63,678 nt of DNA from Methylomonas sp. (lineage in GTDB: Bacteria > Pseudomonadota > Gammaproteobacteria > Methylococcales > Methylomonadaceae), in the NCBI GenBank assembly GCA_026989395.1, contig JALSJK010000096.1:1-63678 (forward strand), written 5' to 3'. The number at the start of each line of letters is the position of its first letter. The first letter of the stretch is position 1. Positions 11,366 through 48,857 of this stretch are shown here, one piece after another. Under the pieces are notes generated by a model. The model had not been told where the DNA came from, did not search any database, and saw only the letters and a program-made list of their open reading frames with translations. The position numbers and the translations under genes are program-made.

Positions 11366-12550
11366 ATGAAAACTCTAGTCAACCTTTTAATTTTTTTATT
11401 ACTTCCTATTCAAGCTCTGTCAGCTTTGGAAATTTCAGGATATGTCGGGGTAGAAGATTTAGTTTTTACCCAAAATCCACTCGATAACAGGCAACATAAT
11501 AATTATGTGTCCGGGGTGATTGAGCCCGAGATTTATCATGAATGGGATGATGGCACGCAAAATTTTGCTTTTGTGCCTTTCTTTCGTTATTCACAGCATG
11601 ATAGCCGCCGCACCCATTTTGACATCCGGGAATTAAACTGGATGAAAATAGCTGAATCCTGGGAATTACGAGTTGGCATCCGGGAAATTTTCTGGGGAGT
11701 TACCGAATCTCAGCACCTGGTCAATATTATCAATCAAACTGATTTGGTTGAAAACATGGATACTGAAGACAAACTTGGACAACCCATGATTAATCTGGCT
11801 TTGATTAATGACTGGGGAACCCTGGATTTGTTTATTCTGCCAGGATTTAGAGAGCGTACTTTCCCTGGCGTCGAAGGTCGTATGCGCATCTTACCCATCG
11901 ATATTGATAATGCCCGGTTTGAAAAAAATGGCTTTGAAAGACACATGGCCTATGCCTTTCGCTGGTCACAAACCCTTGGAGATTGGGATATCGGATTCTC
12001 GCATTTTTATGGAACCAATCGAGACCCATTATTTCTTCTGGACTCTGATCGGGCAGGAAATCTTCGCATTATTCCGTTTTACGAAATGGTCAATCAGACC
12101 GGACTGGATGTTCAGGTGACTAAAGATGCCTGGCTATGGAAACTGGAAGCCATTTTCCGATCCAGTAAAACCTTTAATTATTTTGCCTCAACATTTGGCT
12201 TCGAGTACACCTTTTTCAATATTAGGGAGACTGGCCTGGATATTGGGGTTTTAGCCGAATATTTGTATGACAGCCGTGGCCGTAATATCCAGACTTTATT
12301 TGAAGACGACTTTTTCGTTGCTCTGCGGTTCGCCTTGAATGATACTCAAAGTACAGAAATTCTGGCCGGAATTGTATTAGACCGAACCACCAGCGCCAAG
12401 TTTTATAATATTGAAGCCAGCAGAAGATTTGGCGATAGCTGGAAATTGGAAATCGAAGCCCGGTTTCTTGCAGGAATACCAAAAGACGACCCAGCTTATA
12501 TGCTCAGGGACGATGATCATATCAGAATGGAATTAAGCTATCATTTCTAA
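11366..12550 (+). CDS. Outer-membrane beta-barrel protein of the MMPL/LolA-like operon
   Basis: The ATG at 11366 is chosen over upstream starts because it gives a clean signal peptide (MKTLVNLLIFLLLPIQALSA). The 394-residue product is rich in alternating aromatic/polar strands (for example WELRVGIREIFWGV and WKLEIEARFLA) and ends in the aromatic strand ...MELSYHF with C-terminal Phe, the BamA-recognition signature of outer-membrane barrels. It resembles the barrel partner (DUF1302-type) that accompanies MMPL permease and LolA-like genes elsewhere. It starts 5 bases after its neighbour's stop. Its cargo is unknown. Confidence 0.75.
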   Translation: MKTLVNLLIFLLLPIQALSALEISGYVGVEDLVFTQNPLDNRQHNNYVSGVIEPEIYHEWDDGTQNFAFVPFFRYSQHDSRRTHFDIRELNWMKIAESWELRVGIREIFWGVTESQHLVNIINQTDLVENMDTEDKLGQPMINLALINDWGTLDLFILPGFRERTFPGVEGRMRILPIDIDNARFEKNGFERHMAYAFRWSQTLGDWDIGFSHFYGTNRDPLFLLDSDRAGNLRIIPFYEMVNQTGLDVQVTKDAWLWKLEAIFRSSKTFNYFASTFGFEYTFFNIRETGLDIGVLAEYLYDSRGRNIQTLFEDDFFVALRFALNDTQSTEILAGIVLDRTTSAKFYNIEASRRFGDSWKLEIEARFLAGIPKDDPAYMLRDDDHIRMELSYHF

Positions 12551-12602
12551 AAGTTGACGGGGTATAGCCTCGCATGAGGCAAGTGAGCAAATTATACTTT
12601 TT

Positions 12603-33677: not shown

Positions 33678-34406
33678 TTAAACTGCTATGCCAACCTGTA
33701 AGGCATCAAACCAGTCAAGGAAGCGTTTCACATCATCGCCTTTAAACATACGGCCATGTTGGGGTGCCAAAATGTCAATATCCAGATCACGAACCCGATC
33801 TATCCAGAATCGTTTGGCCTGGTTTGAGGGCATCCAGCGTTGATGGAAAAAACGCATTTTTTCGACGTGTTCATCAAAATTATCTACAAACACTGGCGCA
33901 CCGGGTTCTTCTAACGCCGCGCCAATATCACCCGACATTAAAATTTTGGCATTGGGATCATAAATATTAAAATTAGCTGAAGCGTGCATGTAATGTGCAG
34001 GAATAACCTGCAATTCCACCCGCTCTAAATTAATCACGCCACCATTATCCTGAATCGGTACATACTCAATCGTTTCGCAACCAAAGTGGCGGATAAACCC
34101 TTCCCACAAACCTGATGCATGTAATTTCGCATTTGGCAATGCCTGGTCCCATAATCCTAATGAAGAAATAATGTCCGGATCCTGATGGGATGCAAACAAA
34201 TCAGTAATTTCCTCCACTGGAGCATGATGTAAAACCGCAGCCAGCATTGGAGCAAACAACTCCACGCCGCCAGGATCAATCACCAAACACCGAGAACCGG
34301 TACGCACGACATATTGATTGGTATCAATAATTTTTTCAGGTTTGTTATCATCTCTGCCAAACATCAGCCATTGATACGATCCTTCGTAAATTTTGGTCAT
34401 TTTCAT
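33678..34406 (-). CDS. ODP-type oxygen-binding di-iron protein (flavodiiron-like metallo-beta-lactamase fold)
   Basis: A 242-residue protein with the metallo-beta-lactamase fold of flavodiiron proteins but no flavodoxin domain. Candidate iron ligands are His74, Asp76 and Asp78 in SHQDPD (H-x-E-x-D in classical enzymes), His141 in HYMHASANF, Asp160 in MSGD and His217 in PQHGRMF. Stand-alone domains of this kind (ODP) bind oxygen reversibly at a di-iron site and signal to chemoreceptors in Treponema denticola. Here it is the last gene of the chemosensory cluster, so oxygen sensing for the array is a strong inference. AAAGGA precedes the start. Confidence 0.8.
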   Translation of the reverse strand: MKMTKIYEGSYQWLMFGRDDNKPEKIIDTNQYVVRTGSRCLVIDPGGVELFAPMLAAVLHHAPVEEITDLFASHQDPDIISSLGLWDQALPNAKLHASGLWEGFIRHFGCETIEYVPIQDNGGVINLERVELQVIPAHYMHASANFNIYDPNAKILMSGDIGAALEEPGAPVFVDNFDEHVEKMRFFHQRWMPSNQAKRFWIDRVRDLDIDILAPQHGRMFKGDDVKRFLDWFDALQVGIAV

Positions 34407-34423
34407 TGATATTTTCCTTTGGC

Positions 34424-35038
34424 TTAATCGCTAAAATTAATAATCGAAAGTGCAGTACGACAGCGCTGGACATTGCTATGAATAACCAAAGCAGCATTAT
34501 CAACACTCTCGGCAACTGCCTGCAAACTTTGCAGGTACTCACCTGCCTGTGATGCTTCAATTCGTGAATTGGCAGCAATAACTCTGGCTGCCCGCGCTGG
34601 ATGCATGACGCTGGCAAGTTGCTCTAACAGTTGGTCAACATGACTTTGAAACTCCCTTCGACATTCCATTTTGCGTTGCTCTGCTTGCTCTTGAGAAATA
34701 TTCATTGATGAGGCGTATGCAGCATTTTCCGTTAAACTTGTTACCTTGGAAAACTGATTGGAAGCAGCCGTCATCTTATGTTCATTTACCGTTAATTGAT
34801 AAAGCTTAACCGCCTGCAAGTTAATGCTATTAACCAGGTTAATCGTATCTTTCGCCAGCTCATTAATGAAATCAGTAATCGGCTGAAAGCCTTTAGCTTT
34901 CTCTCCTGCCCTGAAAGCGATTGCTTTGGCATTCGCCGCAGCTAATGAAATTTCCTTGGCCACATTCATCACATCACTAAGTTCAGCTGCGATTGATGCC
35001 ACAGCAACAAATTGGGATTTAACCTGATTTTTTTTCAT
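34424..35038 (-). CDS. Small soluble protein with two degenerate chemoreceptor-tip motifs
   Basis: From the ATG at 35038 (the longer frame uses a TTG) the protein has 204 residues, no membrane segment and strong helix-forming composition. Residues 20-62 (ELSDVMNVAKEISLAAANAK... RAGEKAKGF...) align with the signalling hairpin tip of methyl-accepting proteins such as the neighbouring receptor ([21 protein letters not shown]). Residues 154-180 (NSRIEASQAGEYLQSLQAVA) look like a second, more decayed copy. Key tip residues are changed, so normal CheA/CheW contacts are doubtful. It sits 17 bases before the oxygen-sensor gene and 61 bases after the SpoIIE-type regulator. I do not know a named family. 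Confidence 0.65.
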   Translation of the reverse strand: MKKNQVKSQFVAVASIAAELSDVMNVAKEISLAAANAKAIAFRAGEKAKGFQPITDFINELAKDTINLVNSINLQAVKLYQLTVNEHKMTAASNQFSKVTSLTENAAYASSMNISQEQAEQRKMECRREFQSHVDQLLEQLASVMHPARAARVIAANSRIEASQAGEYLQSLQAVAESVDNAALVIHSNVQRCRTALSIINFSD

Positions 35039-35099
35039 GTTTTTAAGTATAGAAGAACTTGAAAAAATAGTTGTTAACAAATTTCAGGCAAACATTTTT

Positions 35100-36803
35100 T
35101 TATTGATGTGTAAGCTCTTCATTCTGCCATTCAAAAATTGCTTTAACTCGGGTTCCAGCATCCGAATATTGCAGGCTTTTACATAAGGAATTAACTAAGG
35201 GAATACCTCGACCATGATAGTTTTGATTATCAGAAAAGCTGGAAACCAGTTTTTCATGATCAAACCCTTCGCCACTGTCTTTCATTCTGATAATTAATTG
35301 CCCGCCATTTTTAAGTACACGATGGCTAAACATGACTTTAATGTAGCCTTCCCTTTCATTCAGACGCTGAGTTTTCATTTCATAATAATTAGAAAACCCT
35401 TCAGCTGATTTTTTTAATCTGGAATCCAGCCCCAACAATCCATGATCCAGACAATTATTGAACAATTCACTGATAATGATGAAAATTGATTGCTTGTATT
35501 TCAAAAGCCCTTGAATTTCCATAATGGCATTCAACATCACTGGAACCGGACTGACATGTTGCAAGGTTTTCATTTCAAATTCCATTGAGGATTTCCAGAT
35601 CAACGGAACAATTTGCTTGTACTGATTAGTCTGACCAAAATTCTTCCAGGGAGCATTGTCAAGATCACAATGAATCTCGATCAAGGTAATATCATCTTGC
35701 TGATCCAATCCCAGACAATGCTGTTGCTGACCGGCCAAAATATTTTCAAACACGGATTGTTCATTGGCCTGCAAACATGACTCAATACCTTCAAAACCAA
35801 ATTGCTTGCCTTCATTACTTTCTGCTTCAATGATGCCATCGGTAAACAGATACAGAAAATCATCCGCAGTAACAGAAAATAATTGTTCCTGTACTTCAAA
35901 ATCTTCAATAATACCTAGGGGGACATTTTGTGATTTGATAGTTTGGGTCTGCCCTGTACTTGTGTTGAATAAATAATGGTCGGGTAAACCGCATGTCATG
36001 ACATTAATAAATCTGGATTCAGGATCCAAAGTCACCAGAGTAGCGGCCAGAAACATTTGCACAGGCAATAAACAATGTAATTTCTTGTTAATTTCCCGTA
36101 ATATCTCAGCGCCACCGAAGCCTTTGTTGACCATGCCATAGAAAATATCTGCTGCTGGACTGGCGCCAACTGATGCAGACAAACCGTGACCAGTAAAATC
36201 ACCCAATAAACAATACAACTGATTACCAGGCGTTTTAGCGACCAAAAAAATATCGCCATTAAATAGCGACATTGGCGACAAAAAATGCTTGACGTTGGGG
36301 GCATCCAAAAACCGGCTATGAATGATTTTTTCATGGATAGCGGCAGCAACATCCTGTTCCTGTTCTGCTATTTGCTGAAAGGTCTGTAGTTGCTTCTTCT
36401 GCTCTGACTGCTCTTCATATAATCTTTTAAATCGAAGCAGAGAATTTATTTTGGCATGTAATATTGTTGGATTGAAAGGCTTAGCGATAAAGTCGTCCGC
36501 TTTTGCCTCAACGCATCTTTTCAGATTTTCTTCATTATCCTGAGCCGTAATAAAGACAATAGGAACATATTCATTTTCGGAAAGTGAACCGACGATTTGC
36601 TTGGCTGCACCGATACCATCCAGATTTGGCATAACCACATCAAGGATACATAAGTCCGGTTTTTCTTTAAAAAAAACCTCAACAGCTTGTTGACCATCAT
36701 TTGCTAGAACAACCTCAATCTGATCACTCTGCAACATTTTTTGCAGCATCATTCGCTGCAAACGTGTATCGTCAGCAACCAGGATTTTTGCTACATGACC
36801 CAT
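35100..36803 (-). CDS. Response regulator with PP2C/SpoIIE phosphatase and HATPase kinase domains (HsbR/CrsR-like)
   Basis: A 567-residue cytoplasmic three-domain protein. The receiver domain (1-125) has Asp12/13, phospho-acceptor Asp55 in LDVVMP and Lys108 in AKPF. The SpoIIE/PP2C phosphatase domain (about 170-375) has GDFTGHG at 201-207, LFTDGIIEA and QDDITLI. The C-terminal HATPase anti-sigma kinase domain (about 420-560) has SELFNNCLDHG, DSGEGF and GRGIPLV. This is the architecture and length of Pseudomonas HsbR and Shewanella CrsR, which phosphorylate or dephosphorylate a STAS anti-sigma antagonist. The preceding gene encodes such a STAS protein. The receiver is presumably fed by the CheA of this cluster. 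Confidence 0.9.
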   Translation of the reverse strand: MGHVAKILVADDTRLQRMMLQKMLQSDQIEVVLANDGQQAVEVFFKEKPDLCILDVVMPNLDGIGAAKQIVGSLSENEYVPIVFITAQDNEENLKRCVEAKADDFIAKPFNPTILHAKINSLLRFKRLYEEQSEQKKQLQTFQQIAEQEQDVAAAIHEKIIHSRFLDAPNVKHFLSPMSLFNGDIFLVAKTPGNQLYCLLGDFTGHGLSASVGASPAADIFYGMVNKGFGGAEILREINKKLHCLLPVQMFLAATLVTLDPESRFINVMTCGLPDHYLFNTSTGQTQTIKSQNVPLGIIEDFEVQEQLFSVTADDFLYLFTDGIIEAESNEGKQFGFEGIESCLQANEQSVFENILAGQQQHCLGLDQQDDITLIEIHCDLDNAPWKNFGQTNQYKQIVPLIWKSSMEFEMKTLQHVSPVPVMLNAIMEIQGLLKYKQSIFIIISELFNNCLDHGLLGLDSRLKKSAEGFSNYYEMKTQRLNEREGYIKVMFSHRVLKNGGQLIIRMKDSGEGFDHEKLVSSFSDNQNYHGRGIPLVNSLCKSLQYSDAGTRVKAIFEWQNEELTHQ

Positions 36804-36869
36804 TGTTAAGAATTTTCCGATATACTATAAAATTCTGATTGATTCTTTCCTTGCAATCAGGACTCCTAA

Positions 36870-37175
36870 TCAAGCCAGCATAAAAAGCTTGTCAAAACTG
36901 GCAATCTCAAGAATTTTCTTGACTTCTGGACTGGCATTGACAATTTTTACTTTTTCTTTATCACCGCCAATTTTGTCACGCAATACCAACAGCATTCCCA
37001 ACGCTGAACTATCAACATACTCGGTTGCTTTCAAATCAATAATTACCTGTTTAATTGTCGAAGTTACCTGCTCTGTTGCCTTACGAATATCCTGGTGAAC
37101 ACTAAAATCAAACCGACCAGAGATTTTAACTGTCAGTTCACGCGTATCAGCTTTCAAATTTACATTAACTGCCAT
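36870..37175 (-). CDS. STAS-domain anti-sigma factor antagonist (HsbA/CrsA-like)
   Basis: A 101-residue single STAS domain. The phospho-acceptor loop is intact: VDSSALGMLL, with Ser56 in the place of the regulated serine of SpoIIAA and HsbA. It lies 66 bases upstream of the SpoIIE/HATPase regulator, the usual partner arrangement: the regulator's phosphatase and kinase domains set the phosphorylation state of this protein, which then binds or frees an anti-sigma factor. In Pseudomonas HsbA the partner is FlgM; no anti-sigma factor gene is visible in this window. Confidence 0.88.
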   Translation of the reverse strand: MAVNVNLKADTRELTVKISGRFDFSVHQDIRKATEQVTSTIKQVIIDLKATEYVDSSALGMLLVLRDKIGGDKEKVKIVNASPEVKKILEIASFDKLFMLA

Positions 37176-37360
37176 CTTTTACCTTTTTTATTGTCATTGG
37201 TTATTACAAAAACTTAATACTTGAATCCTTGATTTCAATACGGATAACAGGGGGCAAGATATTGGTTAAGCGAGATTATTTTCAACCCGTGATGAATCAA
37301 GAGCTTGCCTCCTGTGCCATAGTGAAGTTACAGATTCAGGTAAGAATTGAACAAGTCAGA

Positions 37361-38560
37361 TCAAAACAATTCAATTTCTCCTTCTTCAACACTACCTTGT
37401 GAAACAGCTTTCTTCTCCTGTTTCAGCCATTGCTGCTGCATGTCTTCAAATCGTTTTACACCATTTTTCAACTCTTTGGACCATTGCTCAACATCCCCGC
37501 TTTTAAAGCAACCAAGGCCCATTTTAATTTCTTCCGCCATCGCTTGAAAATGCAGGGTATTAGCCTGTAAATATTCAAGCAATTGTCTGGCCATATCTTC
37601 AAACTGTAATGCACGCACAGCATTCCCTACATTTACCCCAATTTGGTTACTGATTCCAGAAACCTGATTTAATTTATGAGCAAAATGTTCATTCATATTG
37701 GTAAGATCAACCATCATTTCATCAACATGTGACTTGGATGAAATCGCCATACTCATATCTTTGGAAGCCATTTGTTCGATAATACTGCGAGCATTATTGA
37801 TATTATTTCTTGAGATATTAACGACCTGTCTGATTTCCTCACTGAATTTATCTGAATTTCTGGACAAATTCCGTACTTCATCTGCCACAACAGCAAACCC
37901 CCGTCCAGCCTCCCCTGCACGAGCAGCTTCAATAGCGGCATTTAATGCTAACAGATTGGTTTGATCAGCAATGTTCTGAACATCTGTTAACAGTGTTTCG
38001 ACCTGATCCATATGTTCACCAATGTCGTTAATAACATTGACCATTTCCATGCTTTGTTTACTGACCGCTAATATTTGGTCAATGAACATGTTGAGTACAT
38101 TGTCAGTTTCTTTGGCAAATTCCTGGAAATTCAAAACTTTGCCTTGTTTGTCCTCTGCTTCACCAGTAATATTAGAGATCATAGTATAAACAGCCTCAGA
38201 CTGCTCAGATGCCAGGTTATTAACTCCATTAAAACTATCAGTCATTGTTACTACCGCATCGGCAACGACTGACCTGACTTGTTGTAACTCGTCGGAGAAA
38301 ACTTTTATTTCCTGTTCAATACAACTATCCAGTGCCGATAAATAGTTTTCAATCGCCTTGTTCACTTTTGAAAAATCTGATTCGTCTTGCTCTTTTGATA
38401 AGAGCTCTTTGTTTAAAGTGTAATTTGTATATCCCCATAACAAACCCATAATAGGTACAATGAACCAATACAAAGTCCCTGCATCCAAGATCAAAGCTAT
38501 GCTTAACAGAACAACTATCAATACAAACGGAATCGAGGTTTTTTGTAAGAAAGAATTCAT
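37361..38560 (-). CDS. Methyl-accepting chemotaxis protein with cytoplasmic signalling domain and possible CheZ-like motif
   Basis: A 399-residue receptor with two short membrane helices at residues about 10-44 and no periplasmic loop of note. The signalling hairpin tip is perfect ([29 protein letters not shown] region, 197-225). After the descending helix comes [12 protein letters not shown] (317-328), where Asp322 and Gln326 have the D-x-x-x-Q spacing of the CheZ phosphatase active site, and the protein ends in GEIELF. It has no recognised sensory domain and may receive its signal from soluble partners such as the oxygen-binding protein in the same gene group. Confidence 0.88.
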
Positions 38561-38572
38561 TGTTCTTAAATA

Positions 38573-39616
38573 TTATTTTGCTAGAGAAATAATTTGATTT
38601 GCAACTTGATCCAATGGTTTAACATAATCCGTACAATTTAATTTATAGGCCTCACCCGGCATACCCCAAACTACGCTGCTTGCTTCATCCTGAATCACCG
38701 TTTTTGCACCCGCATCATGCATGGCTTTCATCCCTTTAGCCCCATCTGCTCCCATCCCCGTTAACAACACACCAATGGCATTAACACCGACATTCTGTGC
38801 AACTGAATAAAACATGACATCAACTGCAGGCTTATGACGATTAACAGGTTCGCCATCATCCAGTTTACAAACATAACGAGCACCATTTCGAATGATTTTC
38901 ATATGTTTATCGCCCGGAGCGATATAAATATTTCCCGGCAAAATTTGCTGTCCATCTTGAGCGATGCATGCAGTCATTGCACCTGCCAAATCAACATGCT
39001 TTGCAAAAGAATCACTGAATGAAGCGGGCAAATGCTGGGAAATCACAATTGGAGGCGTATCTTCTGGTAAACCGGCTACAACATCTTTTATAGCTTCTGT
39101 ACCTCCTGTGGAAGCGCCCAGTGCAATTATTTTATCGGTTGTCTTAAAATGCGTAGATCCTGTTGTTGAAACAACAGGCTTTTTGACTGGTGTTCGACCT
39201 TCCCTAGCTTTTACATTGGCCCTTGCAGCTACTTTCACCTTATTAATAATCTCATCAGAGTATTGTTTAAGGCTTGCTGCTACATCCAGTTTCGGTTTAG
39301 CAACAAAATCCACCGCACCGATTTCCAAAGCTTCAAGTGTAACCGAAGCTCCTTGTTCTGTCAGCGTTGAAATCATTACCACCGGCATCGGCCGCAAACG
39401 CATCAAGTTGCGCAAAAATGTTAAGCCATCCATCCGCGGCATTTCGATATCAAGAGTAATGACATCAGGGTTAAGTTTTTTAATTTTATCCCTTGCTATC
39501 AAGGGATCAGCAGCCGTACCAACCACTTCAATATCCGACGATGAATTAAAAATTTCAGTCAGCATATTTCTGATTAGTGCTGAATCATCGACGATTAATA
39601 AGCGAATCTTTGCCAT
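38573..39616 (-). CDS. cheB: Chemotaxis protein-glutamate methylesterase CheB
   Basis: A 347-residue CheB: receiver domain (1-120) with DDSALIRNM, Asp56 in [11 protein letters not shown] and KPK, a linker of about 40 residues, and the methylesterase domain (about 155-347) with catalytic Ser in GASTGGTEA, His in SQHLPASFS and Asp in [13 protein letters not shown]. It demethylates and deamidates receptor glutamates under control of CheA phosphorylation. It follows cheD by 16 bases and is followed by the receptor gene after 12 bases, all in one transcription unit. Confidence 0.97.
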
Positions 39617-39632
39617 TGTATTGTCTTACCTG

Positions 39633-40262
39633 TTAAAAAAGTTCAATATCACTCTCAACTGCTGTGTCTTTAATAGTAGTACTGTATTTAATTTCTTGCT
39701 GAACGACTGTCTGATCATGCAGATTTTTGACCTTTTTCATCATTGCCTTCCCTGTTTTGGGAAAATACTGAACATTTCTTGGGTAATTATCACCTAAATC
39801 ATGACTGACCAATTCCAAACCTTCCGCATCAACATAATCGAGTGCAAACTTGACATTCCTTTCGCCCACCGTTCCCATTGTCGGAATTACTTTACCGCCA
39901 CCGAATAATTTAACTTGCAGATTTTTACGTTGGCCGCCATTTTGTAAAATAGTGTTGATTAAATGCTCCATGGCATAATTACCATAACGGGTAGCATTAC
40001 CTACAACCGCCTCAATACCATCTTCCAATTGTTGTTTTGAAGTTTCAGGCAACATAAAATGGTTCATGCCACCCACGCCTGTTACTTTGTCTCTGATACA
40101 AGCGGCAATGCAAGAACCCAGAACCGTGGTAATCATTTCATCTTCATTGGTGACATAAAACTCCCCCGGCAGAATTTTTGCCACAATAATTTTTTTTTCC
40201 TTGTTCCAATATCGTTTAATTTCAGTAAAACCAGAAATTGATGGCTTTGTTAGCTGCTGCAT
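39633..40262 (-). CDS. cheD: Chemoreceptor glutamine deamidase CheD
   Basis: A 209-residue CheD. The catalytic Cys is in TTVLGSCIAACIRD (about residues 45-58), His in GGMNHFMLPE (about 66), and VKLFGGGKVIPTMGTVGERNVKFALDYV holds the conserved core near residue 120. CheD deamidates receptor glutamines and in some bacteria stimulates CheC. No CheC is present here. The protein ends in DIELF, almost the same as the EIELF end of the receptor encoded two genes later, which hints at a shared docking peptide. It lies between cheR (124 bases upstream) and cheB. Confidence 0.95.
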   Translation of the reverse strand: MQQLTKPSISGFTEIKRYWNKEKKIIVAKILPGEFYVTNEDEMITTVLGSCIAACIRDKVTGVGGMNHFMLPETSKQQLEDGIEAVVGNATRYGNYAMEHLINTILQNGGQRKNLQVKLFGGGKVIPTMGTVGERNVKFALDYVDAEGLELVSHDLGDNYPRNVQYFPKTGKAMMKKVKNLHDQTVVQQEIKYSTTIKDTAVESDIELF

Positions 40263-40386
40263 GGCAAACCTTGTTAGTAGTTTTTTTGTGATGTTGAATT
40301 CTTTGGCTTTAAAAGCTTATTAAGCTGATGCTGTCATTACCCCACACATTCAGCACCACCAGAATATGTATATTTTTTTAAATGAA

Positions 40387-41214
40387 CTAGACCTTCTGAT
40401 AAATCGTATTTCCTATCAATTTAAAGGCGGTATCCATTTGGTGCAAAGACTCTGAATGACCAATAAACAAATAGGAACCACTGGCAAGTAAATCTGCAAA
40501 ACGATTCGCCAACATTTCTTTGGTATTTTGGTCAAAATAAATCAGCACATTACGGCAAAAAATAAAATCAAAGGGGCCTCGCATTGGCCAGTCTCCCATC
40601 AAGTTCAATTGCTTGAAACTGATAATCTCCCTGAGTTCATTTCTCACCCTGACTTTATTTGGCTGGGTTTTGCTTTTTAAAAACCATTTTTTGATGCGTT
40701 GTTCTGGTAAACCATCAATCCGGTCAGCAGAATAAACACCACTAGCCGCCTTGGCTAATACATCAGTATCCAGGTCTGTCGCTAAAACTTTAACGTCCCA
40801 CCCAGGTGGGACGTTTTCAAGTAATGTCATCGCGATAGAATATGGTTCCTCACCCGTTGAGCTAGCAGACGACCAGACCTTGATCTGCTTGGAATGTTTA
40901 TTTTTTTTTAACAGGTCCGGTATGACCGTGTCACGGACGAATTCGAAATGGTGGTTTTCCCGAAAAAACGCGGTTAAATTCGTCGTAATCGAATTAATGA
41001 ACTCGGTAAATTCCTGCTCCTTGTTATCAGTCAGATATTGACAATATTGCTTGAAACTACTTAAACCCAGTGTCCTAATACGACGGGATAATCGTGAATA
41101 GAACATGTCAAACTTATCATCGGTAACAATAATACCGGAATGCTGATTTGATAATTTCCTCAGGAAATCAAAATCCTCAAAGGTATATTCAAATTCACGT
41201 TGTTTTTGGCTCAC
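40387..41214 (-). CDS. cheR: Chemotaxis protein methyltransferase CheR
   Basis: A 275-residue CheR with the N-terminal helical domain (about 1-75, including LSRRIRTLGLSSFKQYCQYL) and the SAM-dependent methyltransferase domain with AFFRENHHFEF, WSSASSTGEEPYSIAMTLLE (SAM loop, about 118-137), DLDTDVLAKA and FDFIFCRNVLIYF. It methylates receptor glutamates. The beta-subdomain that binds the receptor pentapeptide is present, and the Aer-like receptor upstream carries a matching W-x-x-F tail. Confidence 0.96.
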   Translation of the reverse strand: MSQKQREFEYTFEDFDFLRKLSNQHSGIIVTDDKFDMFYSRLSRRIRTLGLSSFKQYCQYLTDNKEQEFTEFINSITTNLTAFFRENHHFEFVRDTVIPDLLKKNKHSKQIKVWSSASSTGEEPYSIAMTLLENVPPGWDVKVLATDLDTDVLAKAASGVYSADRIDGLPEQRIKKWFLKSKTQPNKVRVRNELREIISFKQLNLMGDWPMRGPFDFIFCRNVLIYFDQNTKEMLANRFADLLASGSYLFIGHSESLHQMDTAFKLIGNTIYQKV

Positions 41215-41223
41215 ATTTTATCC

Positions 41224-41724
41224 TTACGCCACTTCCAGCATTTGGCCAATACCCAGAAGATTTGCCGATTCAACAAAACGTTCTGATGCGCTTATAACAA
41301 CATTCTTATGCAGCTTGACTGCTTCTTGTTTTAATACCACAAGCAATTGTAATGTTGCCGTATCAATCGTCTTCACAGCTTGTGCATCAATTTCAATCAG
41401 ATCATTTTGTTCCAATACTTCTATTAAAGTCTTGTGTAATTCTGCCACTTTCTGAATATTCATTTCTGCTTCCAGTTTCACTTGTCCTTCTCCTGCAACT
41501 ACATCGTTGTATTCTTGAGTTGAGATCGTTGGCTGCTTAATATCAATTTCAGTCTCTTCGGAATTAACTTTATTTTTGTCAGCTTCATTTTCAGATGGTA
41601 CATCAGATTTTCCTGTATCCTCCGCACTTTGTTCCATAGCAGGGGTTTTACCTTTATCTTGGTCGCTTTCATCCATCCATGCTAACGGATCGAAACCAAT
41701 CATTTGTTCTTCATCACGCGCCAT
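41224..41724 (-). CDS. STAS-domain protein with acidic N-terminal extension
   Basis: A 166-residue protein. The first ~75 residues are acidic and probably unstructured (rich in Glu, Asp, Lys). Residues about 80-166 are a STAS domain, but the usual DSSG loop reads IDTATLQLLVVL, so the regulated serine is replaced by Thr/Ala. This is typical of STAS proteins found in chemosensory clusters between parA and cheR, which may not be phosphorylated like SpoIIAA. Its start overlaps the parA stop by 11 bases. Its binding partner is unknown. Confidence 0.75.
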   Translation of the reverse strand: MARDEEQMIGFDPLAWMDESDQDKGKTPAMEQSAEDTGKSDVPSENEADKNKVNSEETEIDIKQPTISTQEYNDVVAGEGQVKLEAEMNIQKVAELHKTLIEVLEQNDLIEIDAQAVKTIDTATLQLLVVLKQEAVKLHKNVVISASERFVESANLLGIGQMLEVA

Positions 41725-42481
41725 TCATCACCTTCCTTTCCAAAAAATCATCAGCCAGAGAGCGAAAATCTCTTGCAGAACGACTTCCAGGCCTATATTC
41801 CAAAATAGTTTTGCCAAAGCTAGGACATTCTGCCAACATGGCATTTTCTCGAATGACTGTTGCCAAAATTTGCTGAGGAAAATGCTTCAACAAAATATTC
41901 AATACTTGTTTTGATAACCGTCTAACGGTATTAAATCTCGATAGTACCAACCATTTTGTATATTTTTTATTTAATACCTTTTCAAATTTTCGGACTGAAG
42001 CCATCAAGTGAGACAAACCTTGTAGCGATAAAAAATCTCCACTCATCGGTATTAACAATTCATCCGTTGCAAACAATGCATTGGCAGCCAGTAACCCAGA
42101 TGAAGGTGGACAATCAATTAACACATAGTCCTGATCCTGTAACGAAACTTCTAAAACCTTTCTTAATAAGTCACCCCGCTGAGCACCACCCTCGGTTAAT
42201 TGTTCAATTTCTTTCAATGCAGAACCCGCAGGTATAAGTTGAAGATTGTCTCTAACCTTGCAGGTCACAGATTCCAATGTGGTTTTTTCCAATAACACTT
42301 CACCAATCCCAGCATTGTGTTTAACCTCCCCAAAACTAACCCCCAAATGGCCTTGTGGATCAAAATCTATCAAAGTTACTTTCATGCCTTTTAGCGCCAA
42401 AGCATGTGCCAAGTTGGCAGATGTTGTAGTCTTTCCCACTCCACCTTTCTGATTGATGACTGCAATAATATTAACGCTCAT
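41714..42481 (-). CDS. ParA-family ATPase of the chemosensory cluster (ParC/Soj-like)
   Basis: A 255-residue MinD/ParA-type ATPase with deviant Walker A KGGVGKTTTSANLA (residues 12-25), switch I region DFDPQGHLG (about 39-47) and Walker B VLIDCPPSSG (about 120). ParA homologues encoded within chemotaxis clusters (ParC of Vibrio, PpfA of Rhodobacter) place receptor arrays at the pole or distribute cytoplasmic arrays at division. No ParP gene is seen next to it; the two CheW genes flank the group. It starts 2 bases after the cheW stop. Confidence 0.9.
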   Translation of the reverse strand: MSVNIIAVINQKGGVGKTTTSANLAHALALKGMKVTLIDFDPQGHLGVSFGEVKHNAGIGEVLLEKTTLESVTCKVRDNLQLIPAGSALKEIEQLTEGGAQRGDLLRKVLEVSLQDQDYVLIDCPPSSGLLAANALFATDELLIPMSGDFLSLQGLSHLMASVRKFEKVLNKKYTKWLVLSRFNTVRRLSKQVLNILLKHFPQQILATVIRENAMLAECPSFGKTILEYRPGSRSARDFRSLADDFLERKVMNGA

Positions 42482-42483
42482 TA

Positions 42484-42978
42484 TTAATCCGTTAAATTTG
42501 CGAATTCTTCGGGATTTAAAAGTTTGTTTACATTTAACAGCATGATCATCCGGCTACCATTTACATACATTCCTTGCATATATCGGGTATCAATTTTAGA
42601 ACCCAAATTGGGTGCACTTCGAATTTCATCCTTGTTAATATCAAGCACATCAGAAACCGCATCTGCAACAATACCAATTACCAGGTCATCTGCCTGGTCC
42701 ACAAGCGAAAGCACTATCACAACGGTTACTGGAGAATAGTCAACCTTTTTCATGCCAAAGCGCTCACGTAAATCGACAATTGGAACAATTGCTCCTCGTA
42801 AATTCAGCGCGCCTTTTATAAAATCTGGCGTGTTAGGTATTTCACGGACCGGTTCCCAACCTCTTATTTCCCGGACTTTAAGAATCTCGAGTCCATAAAA
42901 TTCATCGGCAAGCTGAAATGTCAAATATTGAGCGGTACTGGGTTCTCTGGCTTGCGCCAACTGATTTTCGTTTGCCAT
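42484..42978 (-). CDS. cheW: Chemotaxis coupling protein CheW (second copy)
   Basis: A 164-residue CheW made of one SH3-like double barrel: YLTFQLADEFYGLEILKVREI (receptor and CheA-binding surface, about residues 18-38), NTPDFIKGALNLRGAIVPIVDLRERFG (about 49-75) and VVIVLSLVDQADDLVIGIVADAVSDVLDI. It links receptors to CheA. It is about 50% similar by eye to the other CheW gene of the cluster and lies between the Aer-like receptor and parA. Confidence 0.94.
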   Translation of the reverse strand: MANENQLAQAREPSTAQYLTFQLADEFYGLEILKVREIRGWEPVREIPNTPDFIKGALNLRGAIVPIVDLRERFGMKKVDYSPVTVVIVLSLVDQADDLVIGIVADAVSDVLDINKDEIRSAPNLGSKIDTRYMQGMYVNGSRMIMLLNVNKLLNPEEFANLTD

Positions 42979-43032
42979 GATTTATTCTCTGTTTTCAGTT
43001 ACCTTGATTAGTATTGATTCAATTATAATTTT

Positions 43033-45729
43033 TTAAAACTCTTCCCATTCATCATCACTGCCAGATGATACCGAGACTGATGGTTTCGGTCTTGGTGATG
43101 GAGCAGATTTCACTACTGGTGTATGTGTATTGACAGTTTTCCCGGATATACTGGCCTCCACATCAGATAGTAAACTTACAATTTTGTCTGATAATCCTGC
43201 GACTTGTTGATAGGCTTGTTCAGCTCCGGCAGCATTTCCATTCTGTCGTTGACTGATACATTGATGAACCAACTCATGCATTTGTTTATGTATTGGTTCA
43301 ATCTGTTGTATCGCTGGTAAGTGTCCGTAAGTTGTCATTCCGGTAGAATATAGCCATTTACCAAGATCACAATCCCGATGGGATACTGCTTGATCCATGG
43401 TCAATGCCTCGCTACCTTCGAGGAAATTTCTTAATTTTGCTTTCCAGCTTAAATGTTTGCTTTTTGCTAGAGAAAAATCCAAAGAACTGGCAGCCTGACC
43501 TGTTGAGCTTGGCATTGAACCAGAAGAACCTGAGCCCCCACCTTCAAAGAAGCTCAAGAAACTCGCCATGGTATCGCACTGTTCACTCATCGAAACACTG
43601 GCAGCTGATGCTTCTTCGGCAAGTGCCGCATTCTGTTGGGTAATCTCATCCATTTGTGAAACGGCCTGATTGACCTGCTCAATACCTTGTGACTGTTCAG
43701 CACTGGCAGCCGCAATTTCAGAAACAATATCTCCGACTTTTTTAACACCGGTGACGATTTCATTTAAGGCCGAGCCTGTTTCATTGACAAACTCAGTCCC
43801 TGTTCTTACTCGCTGGATACTGGTCTGAATTAAATCCTTACTTTCCTGTGCTGCAGTAGCGCTTCGTTGAGCCAAATTTCTGACTTCAGTGGCAACAACG
43901 GAAAATCCACGTCCCTGCTCACCGGCTCTGGCCGCTTCAACTGATGCATTCAATGCCAGCAAATTGGTCTGGAAGGCGATTTCATCAATGACACCAATAA
44001 TTTCGGCAATTTTGTTGCTACTTTCATTAATTTCTTCCATGGCGTTAACTGCACGTTTAACAACTCCTCCCCCATCTTCTGCCAGTTTTCTTGCTGTACT
44101 GGCCAGTTTGTCCGCTTGTTGTGCATTATCAGAATTATTTTTAACAGTGCTTGTTAATTCTTCCATACTGGAAGCGGTTTGTTCCAAGCTGGCTGCTTGC
44201 TCTTCTGCACGATGAGAAAGATTATTATTTCCACTGGCAATTTCCTGCGAAGAATTCCGAATAAACTCTGAAGATTCCTTGATTTGTCCAAATACTTCGC
44301 TTAACTTAGCCAGACTGGTATTGATATCATTTTTACAGGTTTCATAGAGTCCGTAATATTGACTGTTAACTGTCCTGGTTAAATCGCCATTTGCCAAACC
44401 ACTCATGACATAGGCAATTTCTTTCATCACTTTTTCAACTGTCTCAGCCACTTCATTCAAATTTCGGCTTAGTACTTCATAGAAGCCTTCTTTATCGGCC
44501 ATATTGATACGACTACTTAGTTCACCTGCTTTTACACCTTCAACCAAGGTTTGAATTTCCCGTTCAATATTGACTTCTTCAGTTCTATCCTTCCATTCGA
44601 CAACAATACCGATTCGTTCACCATGCTCATCAATAACTGGACTGGCTACAATATTCATCGTGTGACCACCGATCATTAAAGCAGACCTGAATGTACCGGT
44701 TAATTTATCCAGCATGGCTCTTTGATGAGCTGGGTTTTTATGGAAAATATCAATATTGGAACCCAATAACTGGTCAGCTTTAAAATCAGGTAATTGACCT
44801 TGAATATCAGCTTCAGCCTCACTAAACATCTTCTGAACAGTTTTATTCATATAGATGATTTCATAATTATTGTTGGCCACCATAACATTGGATTCAACAT
44901 TGTCCAGGGCCTGCTTTAATCTGCCAGAGACAATTGACATTTCCTTGACATAAGACATGTCTGAATTGAGCTTGACCTGCATGGACTGAAGCCCACGGAA
45001 AAAATCACCAATCAAATCGTTTCGGTCAATATCAATGGGATTACGAAATTTCTCATCTGCCAATCGATAAAAAATACTAATGGCTTCTTCCATTGAGGTG
45101 TTAATCAACTTTAATAGATGAACACCAAGCATTATTCCAACAATCGTTAGTAATGTAACTACAGATAATAATGTAAATGATTGTTGCTGGTATAACTGAA
45201 ACATTAGAAAACCATCAGGTATCAAAAATGCCAGCATAGCTAGAGCCGCCTTAAAATGTAATGGCATCTCTTTGATTGTTTTTAGTTTTGCAGCCATCCC
45301 TGTTGGTTTTAATGTTGCCTTTTTTGCCTGTATTTGCTGGTAAAGTGATTCTGCAGTATTAATTTGCTCCCTGCTTGGTGCATAGCGTACTGACAAATAC
45401 TCTACTACCTGTCCCTTTTTAAATACTGGTGTTACATTAGCTTCCACCCAATAATAATCACCGGCTTTGGTTCGGTTTTTAACCAACCCTTTCCATGGTT
45501 TAGCCTGCTTATTAGTGTTCCACAAATCTTCAAAAGCTTCAGGCGGCATATCAGGGTGACGAACAATATTATGATTTTTCCCAACCAGTTCTTCTCGGCT
45601 AAAACCACTGATTTCAACAAAATCGTCATTGGCATAGGTTATTCGTCCTTTGGTATCAGTCCGGGTAACTAATATAGTTCCATCCTTCATCATCACTTCC
45701 CGATCCGTTACCGGCATATTCATTTTCAT
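43033..45729 (-). CDS. Aer-like chemoreceptor with two PAS domains and a C-terminal CZB zinc-binding domain
   Basis: An 898-residue receptor. The N-terminal PAS (about 15-125) closely follows Aer: [19 protein letters not shown] and [24 protein letters not shown], including the Trp/Asn region that holds FAD in Aer. Two membrane helices follow (about 172-215), then a second PAS (about 285-385), a HAMP-like linker, and the signalling hairpin with [29 protein letters not shown] domain (about 765-865) has H-R-D-C-D-L-G-K-W and later His residues for zinc. The tail EWEEF (894-898) fits the W-x-x-F CheR/CheB docking pentapeptide. AAGGAG precedes the ATG. Confidence 0.9.
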
Positions 45730-45795
45730 CGTATTTGCTCCTTACCCATTGCCATCATGGTATTTCTCAGGTTGGTAGTTTTACCAAAAGTATAA

Positions 45796-45821
45796 AACGG
45801 TCTGACACCCCTTAGTGTCAG
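45796..45821 (-). terminator. Hairpin after the first cheW, possible attenuator
   Basis: CTGACAC (45802-45808) pairs with GTGTCAG (45815-45821) around a 6-base loop, immediately after the cheW stop at 45826. On the minus strand the stem is followed by ACCGTTTTAT, a short T run. It could stop part of the transcripts before the Aer-like receptor gene and so raise cheY-cheA-cheW over the downstream genes. Confidence 0.5.
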
Positions 45822-45825
45822 TAAA

Positions 45826-46344
45826 TTAGTTTTCATCTTCATCATCCACATCATCTAACTTCAATAATTTATCGACATCCAGCAACATCACCATTTGTTC
45901 ATCGACAGCCGCCAGACCATTAATATATTCCGTGCTGACTTTGGTACCAAATTCCGGAGGGCTTTGAATCGTGGTCTTATCAATATCAATCACATTGGAT
46001 ACCGCATCGACAACAACCCCCATAATTCTGTTTTTGCCATTGATTTCGGTTTGTAAAATCACCACCACAGTCATCGGTGTATATTCCGCATGTCCCAAGT
46101 TAAATTTATCCCGCAAATCAATCACAGGTACGATTGCTCCACGCAAATTAACAACACCTTTTTCATAAGATGGCACATTGGGAATTCTGGAAATCGGTTC
46201 CCAGCTTCTGATTTCCTGTACCCTCAGAATATCAACTGCGTACTGTTCTTTGCCAAGGATAAAACTTAAAAACTGGACTGCATTAGCCACCTGCTTTTGT
46301 TCGCCTTCTACCTCAACCTCTGCCAGATTATTTGCTTCACTCAT
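45826..46344 (-). CDS. cheW: Chemotaxis coupling protein CheW (first copy)
   Basis: A 172-residue CheW with an acidic N-terminal stretch (1-20) and an acidic C-terminus (DDVDDEDEN). The core has QFLSFILGKEQYAVDILRVQEI (key residues about 23-44), NVPSYEKGVVNLRGAIVPVIDLRDKF and VVDAVSNVIDIDKTTIQSPPEFG. It lies 13 bases after the cheA stop. Two CheW genes in one cluster may let the array mix coupling units with different receptor preference. Confidence 0.95.
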   Translation of the reverse strand: MSEANNLAEVEVEGEQKQVANAVQFLSFILGKEQYAVDILRVQEIRSWEPISRIPNVPSYEKGVVNLRGAIVPVIDLRDKFNLGHAEYTPMTVVVILQTEINGKNRIMGVVVDAVSNVIDIDKTTIQSPPEFGTKVSTEYINGLAAVDEQMVMLLDVDKLLKLDDVDDEDEN

Positions 46345-46356
46345 ATTTTTTTGTCT

Positions 46357-48450
46357 TTACAGATTGGAAAGTCTGACCAAACCGGGAATATCCAGAATCA
46401 ATGCCACCGAACCATCACCAAGAATTGTTGCTCCAGAAATTCCTTCTACCCGACGATAATTCGCTTCCAGTGATTTAATAACAACCTGTTGCTGACCTAA
46501 TAAATCATCAACAAATAACCCACAGCGCATGCCCTGCCCTTCGACAACCACCAGTAGTCCTTCTGTCAATCTGGTTGCCTTGGCAGTTTCTACAGAAAAT
46601 ATTTCATGCATTCTGACAATAGGCAAATACTCATCCCTTAATCGAAATGTTTCACCCTTTCCGGCTACTCGATTTACCATACTTTCATCAATGTTGAGGG
46701 TTTCGATGATAGATACTAATGGCACAATATATGTCTCGTCACCCACAGCTACAGACTGGCCATCCAGAATTGCTAATGTCAACGGCAAATGAATTGCTAT
46801 TGTTGAACCTTTTCCTAATTCAGATTCAATCTCGATATTACCACCGAGTGACTGAATATTTTTTCTGACGACATCCATACCAACACCACGTCCAGAAACG
46901 TCCGTAAGCTTTTCTGCTGTGGAAAAACCGGCATGAAAAATTAATTCATAGGTTTGTTTGTCAGTTAAAATAGCGTCTTCTTCAATCAAACCTTTCTCTA
47001 TTGCTTTGGCTCTTAATACCTCTTTATTAAGCCCCTTGCCATCATCAACAACCTCAATAACAATATTACCGCCTCGATGATATGCATTCAGATTGACAGT
47101 TCCTGTTTCTGGCTTCCCTGCTGCCACTCGATCTTCTGGCATTTCTATACCATGATCCAAACTGTTTCTGACTAAATGAACCAAAGGATCACTGATTAAT
47201 TCAACAACCGTTTTATCAACCTCTGTATTCTCGCCACTGAGTTTTAACTCAATTTTTTTGTTGAGTTTGGTGCTTAAATCATGAACCAGACGTGGAAAGC
47301 GACTAAAGACAAAACTAATTGGCAACATTCGGATATTCATTACGCTTTCTTGTAATTCACGAGTGTTTCTGCCGAGCTGTGTAATCCCGTTTTTTAATTG
47401 TTCCAGTTTGTGTGGGGAAAAATCTTCCCCCACCAAACTCAACATCGACTGGGTTATAACCAACTCCCCAACCATATTGATCAAGGTATCAATCTTTGCT
47501 GTATCTACACGAATAGAACTGGAACCTTTTGGCTTGGCTTCCTTTTTTTCTGCTTTAGGTTTTGCTGATTGATTGACTGCTTGTACAGAACTTATTTTTT
47601 CTGGTTTTACATCGTTACTTTCTGCAGGCTGCTCAGAATTAGCAGCTGAATTTATTTGATTTGGTGCGACATCATTCGTTGGATGCTGAGAAGTTGTGAC
47701 GCCATTAGTTAACGTCTGAATTGCCATATCGCAATCATCTTCAACCCAGTCAAATATATCGTCAATTTCTTCTCGACTGATATCTCCTTCAATTTTAAGA
47801 TCCCAAGATAAGTGACAATCTTCAGGATCGAGATCATATAACCCTGGCACGCCCTGCAAATCGACTATTGCTGTTAATTCGCCAAGTTCCTTTAATTCAC
47901 GAAACATACGTACTGGATCATTTCCGGTTTTCAGCAGGTGAGCATGAGGACTAAAAACAATGTGCCAACCTGCCTGACTTGAACCTTCATTGGCAGCTTT
48001 AGAAGATTCAATAGTATCAATTGATTGTGCAATATTTTCTATTTGAGGTACTTCTGTACTCTCGCCGTTGAGCTCTTTGTCTAGCGCTTGTTTATGCTCT
48101 GCAACTTTAGATTCATTAACCTCATCTCCTTCCTGGATAGCGGTAAGCATCTCTCTTAAACAATCAACTGAACCTAATAAAACATCCAATGCTGTCTGAG
48201 TGATTTGGCGTCGACCATCACGCATTTCATCCAACAAGGTTTCCATCACATGGGTAAAATCAGAAACTGAAGTAAAACCGAATGTGCCACTCCCTCCTTT
48301 TATGGAATGGGCTGCGCGAAAAATAGTGTTAATTTCTTCTTTATCAACATCCCCCATATCCAGGTTTAACAACCCTGATTCCATAGCATCAAGACCTTCG
48401 AAACTTTCCTCGAAGAAGACTTGATGAAATTGTGCCATATCAATAGACAT
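46357..48450 (-). CDS. cheA: Chemotaxis histidine kinase CheA
   Basis: A 697-residue CheA. The Hpt domain (1-105) has phospho-acceptor His48 in AAHSIKGGSGTFGF. An unusual domain at about 165-250 (WHIVFSPHAHLLKTGNDPV...) takes the place of the standard P2, as in several gammaproteobacterial CheA types. A Pro/Lys/Ser-rich linker leads to the dimerisation domain (about 315-380), the HATPase domain (LVRNSLDHGIEMPEDR, DDGKGL, GRGVGMDVV, GKGSTIAIHLP) and the CheW-like P5 (about 555-697). It phosphorylates CheY, CheB and probably the receiver of the SpoIIE-type regulator further down. Confidence 0.96.
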   Translation of the reverse strand: MSIDMAQFHQVFFEESFEGLDAMESGLLNLDMGDVDKEEINTIFRAAHSIKGGSGTFGFTSVSDFTHVMETLLDEMRDGRRQITQTALDVLLGSVDCLREMLTAIQEGDEVNESKVAEHKQALDKELNGESTEVPQIENIAQSIDTIESSKAANEGSSQAGWHIVFSPHAHLLKTGNDPVRMFRELKELGELTAIVDLQGVPGLYDLDPEDCHLSWDLKIEGDISREEIDDIFDWVEDDCDMAIQTLTNGVTTSQHPTNDVAPNQINSAANSEQPAESNDVKPEKISSVQAVNQSAKPKAEKKEAKPKGSSSIRVDTAKIDTLINMVGELVITQSMLSLVGEDFSPHKLEQLKNGITQLGRNTRELQESVMNIRMLPISFVFSRFPRLVHDLSTKLNKKIELKLSGENTEVDKTVVELISDPLVHLVRNSLDHGIEMPEDRVAAGKPETGTVNLNAYHRGGNIVIEVVDDGKGLNKEVLRAKAIEKGLIEEDAILTDKQTYELIFHAGFSTAEKLTDVSGRGVGMDVVRKNIQSLGGNIEIESELGKGSTIAIHLPLTLAILDGQSVAVGDETYIVPLVSIIETLNIDESMVNRVAGKGETFRLRDEYLPIVRMHEIFSVETAKATRLTEGLLVVVEGQGMRCGLFVDDLLGQQQVVIKSLEANYRRVEGISGATILGDGSVALILDIPGLVRLSNL

Positions 48451-48494
48451 TTATTTACCTGTGCTGATTGGAAGGATTTACAAACAAAACATTA

Positions 48495-48857
48495 TTAACC
48501 TAATACTTTTTTTACTGTTTTTAGTAATTGATCCGGATTAAATGGTTTCACTATCCATCCAGTCGCACCCGCTGCTTTGCCCTGCATTTTTTTATCCGTA
48601 CCGGATTCAGTTGTCAGCATCAACATGGGAATAAATTTATAATCGGGCAATGCCCTTAAATCTTTAATCAGGGTTATGCCATCTTTATTCGGCATGTTGA
48701 CATCGGTAACGACCAGGTCAAATTTGTTGGCTTTTGCCTTGTTCAACGCATCGACTCCATCGACAGCATCTACCACATCAAATCCTGCGCCTTTTAATGT
48801 AAATGTCACCATTTGTCTCATTGAAGCTGAATCATCAACTGCAAGAATAGTCGCCAT
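48495..48857 (-). CDS. cheY: CheY-type single-domain response regulator
   Basis: A 120-residue receiver: DDSASMRQM (Asp8, Asp9), Asp52 in VVTDVNMPNKDG, Thr82/83 in MLTTESG and Lys104 in IVKPFNP. It matches the CheY type found at the head of many non-E. coli chemosensory operons (ILAVDDSASMRQMV start). It is the first gene of the cluster, 44 bases before cheA, with AGAGGA as ribosome site. Whether it acts on a flagellar motor, pili or another target cannot be read from this window, which has no motor genes. Confidence 0.95.
   Translation of the reverse strand: MATILAVDDSASMRQMVTFTLKGAGFDVVDAVDGVDALNKAKANKFDLVVTDVNMPNKDGITLIKDLRALPDYKFIPMLMLTTESGTDKKMQGKAAGATGWIVKPFNPDQLLKTVKKVLG

Follow-up and report, generated by a model that had tools for sequence, protein, structure and literature searches.

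The stage 1 F7 chemosensory gene set was described by Ortega et al. 2020 (PMC7184735) in an account that covers V. cholerae and Methylomicrobium alcaliphilum and states that the function of stage 1 and stage 2 F7 arrays is unclear. The arrays of the methanotroph M. alcaliphilum have already been imaged. In S. oneidensis, crsR and crsA are part of the che1 (F7) locus, for which involvement in RpoS regulation has been proposed (PMC9855816). In P. aeruginosa, HsbR and HsbA control RpoS and FlgM under HptB (PMC6482189). An oxygen-binding diiron protein (ODP) of Treponema is coupled to a receptor that has no membrane or sensing parts and modulates CheA (PMC7666581). Here we analysed 63,678 nucleotides of Methylomonas sp. 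DNA (GCA_026989395.1, contig JALSJK010000096.1), hereafter the window, which is the entire contig C96 of a 3.27 Mb genome in 182 contigs (98% complete). At 33678-48857 it carries a cluster of 15 open reading frames (ORFs) that, judged by comparison of its proteins, is a stage 1 F7 chemosensory system, and that ends in a 204-residue protein derived from receptor tips (hereafter the mini-receptor) and an ODP.

With the stage 1 F7 set of PMC7184735 the cluster has in common cheY, cheA, two cheW, an Aer2-like receptor, cheR, cheD, cheB, an McpA-like receptor, an anti-sigma antagonist and a serine phosphatase, and in both cases a CheZ-bearing flagellar-type system lies elsewhere in the genome. The first STAS gene lies between parA and cheR here and before cheY there, and parA and the mini-receptor-ODP pair are extra here, neither being named in that gene set. 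The Che1 system of Shewanella oneidensis with CrsR/CrsA (PMC9855816) likewise unites F7 array genes, Aer2- and McpA-type receptors and a partner switch in one locus, but its ten listed genes include no ODP, mini-receptor or parA. The HsbR/HsbA system of Pseudomonas aeruginosa (PMC6482189) has the same combination of a REC-PP2C-kinase/anti-sigma regulator and a Ser56 STAS antagonist; control there is by HptB, and the terms 'chemo' and 'cheR' are absent from its main text. The cluster is thus the methanotroph-family form of an ancient gene cluster known from Vibrio, Shewanella and Pseudomonas, and its coupling to a partner switch is published for Shewanella Che1. This coupling was the headline of an initial annotation made from the letters alone, and since Shewanella Che1 and HsbR/HsbA are published, it represents a new member of a known arrangement.

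Apparently new is the module of ODP and double-tip protein as a recurrent F7 companion. As in Treponema denticola ODP/TDE2496 (PMC7666581), an ODP is genetically coupled to a receptor without a transmembrane or sensing module, but the present partner has ~204 residues and two degenerate tips, and the likeness is one of description, not sequence. Receptor dimers hold their two subunits in different environments, and natural soluble single-chain receptors exist whose role is given as unknown (PMC4692393). Such single-chain MCP (methyl-accepting chemotaxis protein) domains, from Rhodospirillum centenum and others, also join two tips covalently in one soluble chain. Those are versions of MCP signalling domains, whereas the mini-receptor is short, asymmetric and ODP-paired, and here too the comparison is by description and not by sequence. 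The bipartite aerotaxis receptors CetA/CetB (PMC12442639) similarly use separate sensor and transducer proteins for oxygen or redox, there a PAS-FAD sensor with a membrane transducer, here a diiron ODP with a soluble double tip. The term 'ODP' is absent from an aerotaxis review (PMC13401364), and a literature search by titles and abstract starts, in which subscription papers were mostly not covered, found no paper on an ODP-double-tip pair. By analogy with the Treponema ODP and its sensorless receptor (PMC7666581), we regard the mini-receptor as the probable transducer of the ODP; together they may form a new kind of two-part oxygen input.

Sequence and predicted fold of the mini-receptor

The mini-receptor gene lies at 34424..35038 on the minus strand, as do all genes of the cluster. 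Comparison with orthologs makes ATG 35038 the most likely start, which gives 204 aa rather than 218. The initial annotation listed the protein without recognising what it is. No sensor or other domain was recognised in it. It matched Pfam MCPsignal at E 4e-4 (20.7 bits), and because this score is under the gathering cut-off of 34.6, we term it receptor-tip derived and not an MCP. No NCBIfam model scored over its cut-off. Two strongly conserved blocks enclose a variable stretch. The family profile matched the solved receptor fragments 4JPB and 3UR1 at 1e-6, and upon addition of divergent members the best match was 4JPB at 1.5e-13. We take both structures to be receptor complexes with CheA and CheW.

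Half profiles with divergent members added aligned with the receptor tip in one register (hhalign, 97.5% for half 1 and 94.3% for half 2), with tip 1 at residues 29-64 (34847..34954) and tip 2 at residues 148-183 (34490..34597). None of 100 heptad-preserving shuffles matched either half's score, and reversed controls likewise stayed below. When the halves were searched against 1,588 other ORFs, the best 15 matches displayed per half were all receptors or receptor-like, the latter (one of 15 for half 1, three of 15 for half 2) being defined by BLAST similarity to the window receptors. The best half-2 match among those ORFs was an McpA-like receptor (E 2.5e-4). In distant relatives the motif of the second tip is plain to see (NSRTEAARAGE in L276). 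These comparisons give good support to tip homology in both halves.

The residues that never varied among fifteen divergent members were N36, A37, G45 and F51 in tip 1, plus E161 and A162 in tip 2. In Tsr numbering, these presumably correspond to N381, A382, G390 and F396 (tip 1) and to E385 and A386 (tip 2). Conservation is asymmetric, with the Asn, Gly and Phe positions retained in tip 1 and the Glu position in tip 2, which suggests a division of labour between the tips.

AlphaFold predicted the full mini-receptor with a pLDDT of 83.8 and a pTM of 0.72, with helices at residues 2-48, 51-102 and 109-200. Designed helical bundles, which we take to be four-helix bundles, were the best VIA-align matches (Z 15.6-16.4, with an rmsd of 2.0-2.4 over 171-175 residues) and covered residues 1-204. 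A re-engineered single-chain four-helix bundle, 1yo7, gave Z 13.4. Because the bundle matches span residues 1-204, the long helix probably folds back near tip 2, where DSSP shows no break. Half 2 modelled alone broke at the tip motif, at low confidence (pTM 0.34). In a Foldseek search of the PDB nothing reached E <= 0.001 (receptor 2ch7 ranked 32, E 0.26), a result that is uninformative for helical bundles. We regard a pseudo-dimer fold, in which two hairpins would lie side by side with their tips at the same end, as likely.

Several observations weigh against two receptor-like hairpins. DSSP of the AlphaFold model assigns residues 109-200 to a single helix that runs through tip 2 and is not a hairpin, and the likeness to designed bundles is that of a common arrangement. 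The direct comparison of half 1 with half 2 was weak, though in the same register (42.7% probability). Both tips have lost some receptor-conserved residues, and tip 2 of the window protein has none of the turn glycines of receptor tips.

Pairing with ODP and co-inheritance with F7 CheA

The ODP (33678..34406) matched PF19583 at E 1.4e-69 and, among solved structures, the oxygen-binding diiron protein 6QRQ (E 5e-62), so that oxygen binding is predicted here from sequence. We assessed the pair in a sample of 101 genomes of the family, the window's included. With the window sequence as query, the mini-receptor was found in 48 genomes at E below 1e-40; at E <= 0.001 the number was 56, those beyond the 48 being weaker receptor-like matches. 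ODP was the next gene on the same strand in 40/40 family loci with the protein called. Two further loci (L086, L107) had the ODP and the match, with the ORF called in another frame. ODP pairing of the mini-receptor is well supported.

The mini-receptor also followed the F7 kinase, orthologs of which were counted at >=63% identity (52 genomes). F7 CheA was present in 47 of the 48 mini-receptor genomes, and 47 of the 52 genomes with F7 CheA had the mini-receptor (Fisher 9e-22). The mini-receptor genome without F7 CheA (G046) has a partial match. Among the five genomes with the converse pattern, two clusters reach contig ends (G092, G019) and three are true exceptions (G016, G028, G036). In the ten genera that vary, the mini-receptor occurred in 18/20 genomes with F7 CheA and 1/22 without. 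The pair followed F7-cluster genes in 30 of the 40 loci; nine did not, and G046 was undecided at a contig end. All nine genomes with the pair outside the cluster have F7 CheA elsewhere.

We also searched beyond the family. Among 274 gammaproteobacterial genomes searched for ODP, 30 of the best loci were inspected, and an adjacent match to the window-family profile was found in 9 and to a wider profile in 10, seven of these 10 loci having been used to build the wider profile. At E <= 1e-18, the wider profile picked out five genomes besides the window's among 398 proteobacterial genomes, with ODP directly adjacent in 5/5; this profile was partly built from ODP-neighbour proteins and is not fully independent of ODP, though the genomes differ. 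With two strict peptide patterns, a scan retained 80 of 102 confirmed loci; their labels were methanotrophs, one Methylophaga, and proteobacteria that had no name or only a broad one. We rejected the idea that the mini-receptor is confined to Methylococcales, as the profile and ODP-neighbour searches found divergent members across Gammaproteobacteria.

Three g15 genomes (L257, L258, L259) carry a second, divergent pair of ODP and double-tip protein, which in two of them lies inside another che cluster. We also observed another ODP type (33-41% to the window's; L261:1103-1855, L108:13665-14444, L262-L269), behind which an ORF of 698-812 residues follows in 7/9 loci. That of L108 has GGDEF- and EAL-like motifs by eye, which suggests that this type may control c-di-GMP. 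The genome studied here has an other-type ODP on contig C162, the ORF behind it being called as two short pieces. We considered the window ODP as an enzyme or c-di-GMP sensor; the c-di-GMP-like link belongs to the other type, and the window type pairs with the mini-receptor.

Chemosensory class of the cluster

The cluster has the components of the F7 stage 1 set, among them two cheW genes, one Aer2-like and one McpA-like receptor, a serine phosphatase and two anti-sigma antagonists. The labels Aer2-like and McpA-like rest on domains, gene place and C-terminus, not on a tree. We judged the class by comparing E. coli proteins with the window and with a second system of the genome on contig C55, and not by a CheABR tree or with Vibrio, Pseudomonas or Shewanella sequences. 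E. coli CheA aligned with the window CheA over 698 columns (44%, 514 bits) and with the C55 CheA over 399 columns (295 bits). CheB scored 374 bits with the window and 201 bits with C55, and CheW 155 and 100 bits. E. coli CheR matched the window CheR, the 20 kb of C55 compared containing no CheR, and Tar aligned with the signalling part of the Aer2-like receptor over 253 columns that span the same length in each protein. CheY was reversed, at 66% to the C55 CheY and 38% to the window CheY. The E. coli chemotaxis system is a chimera according to Ortega et al. (PMC7184735). Because E. coli CheA, CheB, CheW, CheR and Tar fit the window and CheY fits C55, as that account predicts, we assign the cluster to F7.

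The C55 CheA adjoins CheZ, a sigma-70 protein and a FHIPEP (FlhA family) protein, which gives the genome a flagellar chemotaxis system as well. We take this to be a separate F6 flagellar system, its class resting on neighbour genes and not on a tree. Across the family sample, FlgM was present in 48/52 genomes with F7 CheA and 9/49 without (46/47 and 8/43 among genomes >=90% complete). F7 therefore occurs mainly in lineages with flagellar genes. RpoS was present in 45/52 genomes with F7 CheA and 37/49 without, a difference that is not significant (Fisher 0.20). As F7 tracks FlgM and not significantly RpoS, a role in motility is possible, a point against the model proposed below.

The partner switch

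By domain content, the two genes before the mini-receptor form a CrsR/HsbR- plus CrsA/HsbA-type pair, an assignment that we consider supported. The STAS anti-sigma antagonist (36870..37175; PF01740, with TIGR00377 over cut-off) has the expected Ser56 at 37008-37010, a residue kept in 17/17 aligned sequences, the window's included. The REC-SpoIIE(PP2C)-HATPase regulator (35100..36803) has intact catalytic residues, with the receiver Asp55 at 36639-36641. The initial annotation had proposed an anti-sigma partner-switch pair with Ser56 on the STAS protein, and the domains, catalytic residues and gene co-occurrence bear this out.

STAS orthologs were counted at >=47% identity (33 genomes, one a fragment) and regulator orthologs if the HATPase part was present (30, of which one is partial and five are truncated copies from g10); other STAS, REC and CheA paralogs, which made up the weaker rows, were excluded. 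Both genes were found in 29 of the 101 genomes, STAS only in four, the regulator only in one, and neither in 67. The receiver residues D-D-D-T-K (E-D-D-T-K in two) were intact in 10/10 linked regulators whose receiver is visible, among them the window's; the G007 copy, cut before the receiver, was excluded. Linked copies retained every receiver and PP2C residue checked. Regulators of genomes without F7 CheA had an intact receiver in 8/8. ATPase residues were intact in 24/26 copies, the other two having the last glycine position changed or gapped. The g10 regulators (two of five examined) have no PP2C domain and an unalignable receiver, with ATPase residues retained.

Several results weigh against a general route from array to regulator, among them the missing PP2C domain in the g10 copies and the eight genomes where the pair occurs, its regulator intact, without F7 CheA. 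No STAS ortholog was found in 27 of the 52 genomes with F7 CheA; in two of them (G007, G090) the cluster is cut by a contig end, and 25 is the safer figure. The regulator encoded outside the cluster in genomes with F7 CheA had the full receiver residue set in 0/6 genomes. In G093, G038, G011 and G078, other residues stand in place of the phosphoacceptor Asp and the Lys; in G043 (two identical copies) and G083, Asp and Lys are kept, and both acidic-pocket residues and the Thr are lost. Linked and unlinked regulators come from few genera, and the correlation has no phylogenetic correction. We also observed identical regulator copies at L118:7281-8972 and 11574-13265, ~4.3 kb apart, with decayed receiver and phosphatase. 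The record of Methylotuvimicrobium buryatense 5G has the cluster as well (loci L077 and L163), and its regulator's receiver is decayed.

With the link to the regulator missing or decayed in many relatives, CheA-to-regulator phosphotransfer is not a constant feature of these systems. The initial annotation held that the CheA array phosphorylates the SpoIIE regulator: the intact residues make this plausible in this genome, and as a general mechanism it is not supported. The check proposed with it, presence of the STAS-regulator pair in the clusters of relatives, gave a divided answer, as the pair is present in the closest (L068, L069) and absent in many others.

RpoS over the NCBI cut-off was present in 28/29 genomes with both STAS and regulator and in 54/72 others (Fisher 0.011). 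The one genome with the pair and no RpoS over cut-off (G067) weighs against RpoS as the target. FlgM was present in 19/29 genomes with the pair, and eight genomes (g8, g26) have the pair and no FlgM match, so we rejected FlgM as a necessary STAS target. By co-occurrence, RpoS is the more likely sigma target, and FlgM, which had been named as a candidate, is unlikely in general.

Other genes of the cluster

Pfam assignments and ORF coordinates agreed with the earlier description of 15 same-strand genes, in the order cheY, cheA, cheW, receptor, cheW, parA-like ATPase, STAS, cheR, cheD, cheB, receptor, STAS, REC-SpoIIE-HATPase, small protein and ODP. This order recurs in many Methylomonadaceae-family genomes and is therefore not due to chance. 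The first genes encode an F7-type CheY (48495..48857; Response_reg), the F7 kinase CheA with Hpt, dimerisation, HATPase and CheW domains (46357..48450), and CheW1 (45826..46344; PF01584). The Aer2-like receptor (43033..45729) has two PAS domains, HAMP_2, MCPsignal and CZB, a zinc-binding domain, and its C-terminal EWEEF agrees with the CheR tether pattern quoted in PMC7184735. Its N-terminal PAS is of Aer type, with 'Aerotaxis receptor' as the top match in the PDB (E 8e-39). With the ODP match to 6QRQ, this agrees with the oxygen- or redox-type inputs first proposed for the cluster.

CheW2 (42484..42978; PF01584) is followed by a ParA-like ATPase (41714..42481; PF13614), found at the same place in many F7 clusters of the family, and by a STAS_2 protein (41224..41724) with an N-terminal GFDPLAW and Thr at the usual phosphoacceptor position. 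The DPL[AGV]W motif occurs in 34/45 family rows of this first STAS protein, and Thr replaces Ser in the rows displayed. CheR (40387..41214; PF01739), CheD (39633..40262; PF03975) and CheB (38573..39616; Pfam and E. coli comparison) precede the McpA-like receptor (37361..38560; PF00015).

CheD and the McpA-like receptor have near-identical end peptides, DIELF and EIELF. CheD ends in ELF in 45/46 family rows (>=44% identity; the remaining one is a fragment), even where McpA is absent, and the McpA-like receptor ends in [IV][ED][LM]F in 19/21, the two exceptions both lying at contig ends. A common docking partner is possible. The conserved McpA end was remarked on as unexplained by Ortega (PMC7184735). 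Several F7 clusters (L087, L088, L090, L093, L097 and others) have, beside cheB, a stand-alone receiver of 136-139 aa that closely resembles the CheB receiver; these clusters are without McpA, the 101-aa STAS and the regulator.

Discussion

We propose that the cluster encodes an F7 array with two accessory modules, an ODP/double-tip input and a partner-switch output, and we hold this full explanation to be probable, with some reserve. ODP would bind oxygen or iron and act through its 204-residue neighbour, a soluble receptor cut down to a pair of hairpin tips on one chain. Inserted in the F7 array, this mini-receptor would be equivalent, in a single chain, to a receptor dimer and would change CheA activity, beside the Aer2-like PAS/CZB receptor. 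Where the McpA-STAS-regulator block and an intact receiver are present, which is the case here, the REC-PP2C-HATPase regulator is probably a phosphorylation target of F7 CheA. The phosphorylated regulator would dephosphorylate the STAS antagonist and alter sigma-factor availability, RpoS being a more likely target than FlgM/FliA. A broader proposal, which we make tentatively and with doubt, is that ODP and the double-tip protein recur as a two-protein oxygen receptor serving F7 and related gammaproteobacterial arrays, with tips specialised differently. One half would face the trimer axis and the other CheA/CheW.

The partner switch could instead be the main output of the F7 array; ODP would then simply add an oxygen sensor, and the small protein would be incidental. 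The intact receivers of all ten linked regulators in which a receiver is visible fit this, as does the coupling proposed for Shewanella (PMC9855816), but the small protein is kept in 47/52 genomes with F7 CheA although 27 of them have no STAS ortholog, and receivers are decayed where the regulator lies outside the cluster. We regard this alternative as rather improbable. Much the same can be said of a regulator driven by another phosphodonor, its cluster position being inherited neighbourhood only. A candidate is an orphan 122-aa Hpt protein on contig C90, whose four nearest ORFs encode LemA, TPM-domain, LpxD and DAHP-synthase proteins and no kinases. HsbR is under HptB control in P. aeruginosa (PMC6482189), and in eight genomes the STAS-regulator pair, its regulator intact, occurs without F7 CheA. 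Set against these points is the difference between linked and unlinked receivers in genomes with F7 CheA.

Somewhat less credible still is a double-tip protein that acts as an array assembly or capping factor or as a CheA inhibitor, with its availability controlled by ODP. Sensorless tips could bind CheW/CheA and cap edges, and the protein is closely co-inherited with F7 CheA; however, its pairing with ODP is stricter than a pure assembly role needs, and the Treponema sensorless receptor coupled to ODP modulates CheA (PMC7666581). It is unlikely that the second tip is a long coiled-coil helix of chance resemblance in a one-hairpin homodimer, as the unbroken helix and the missing turn glycines would allow, given the second tip motif of distant relatives, the shuffles that never reached the half-2 score and the low-confidence break in half 2 alone.

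For an F7 array with an ODP/double-tip input and a partner-switch output, the decay of regulator receivers suggests that coupling of the array to a sigma factor depends on lineage. Engineered Tsr fusions have aimed at separate study of the two subunit positions (PMC4692393). If the proposal is true, the mini-receptor would be a natural asymmetric single-chain receptor with which the subunit positions of the core complex could be studied separately. A conserved oxygen-sensor module that tracks F7 CheA even when encoded elsewhere is a concrete candidate input for these arrays.

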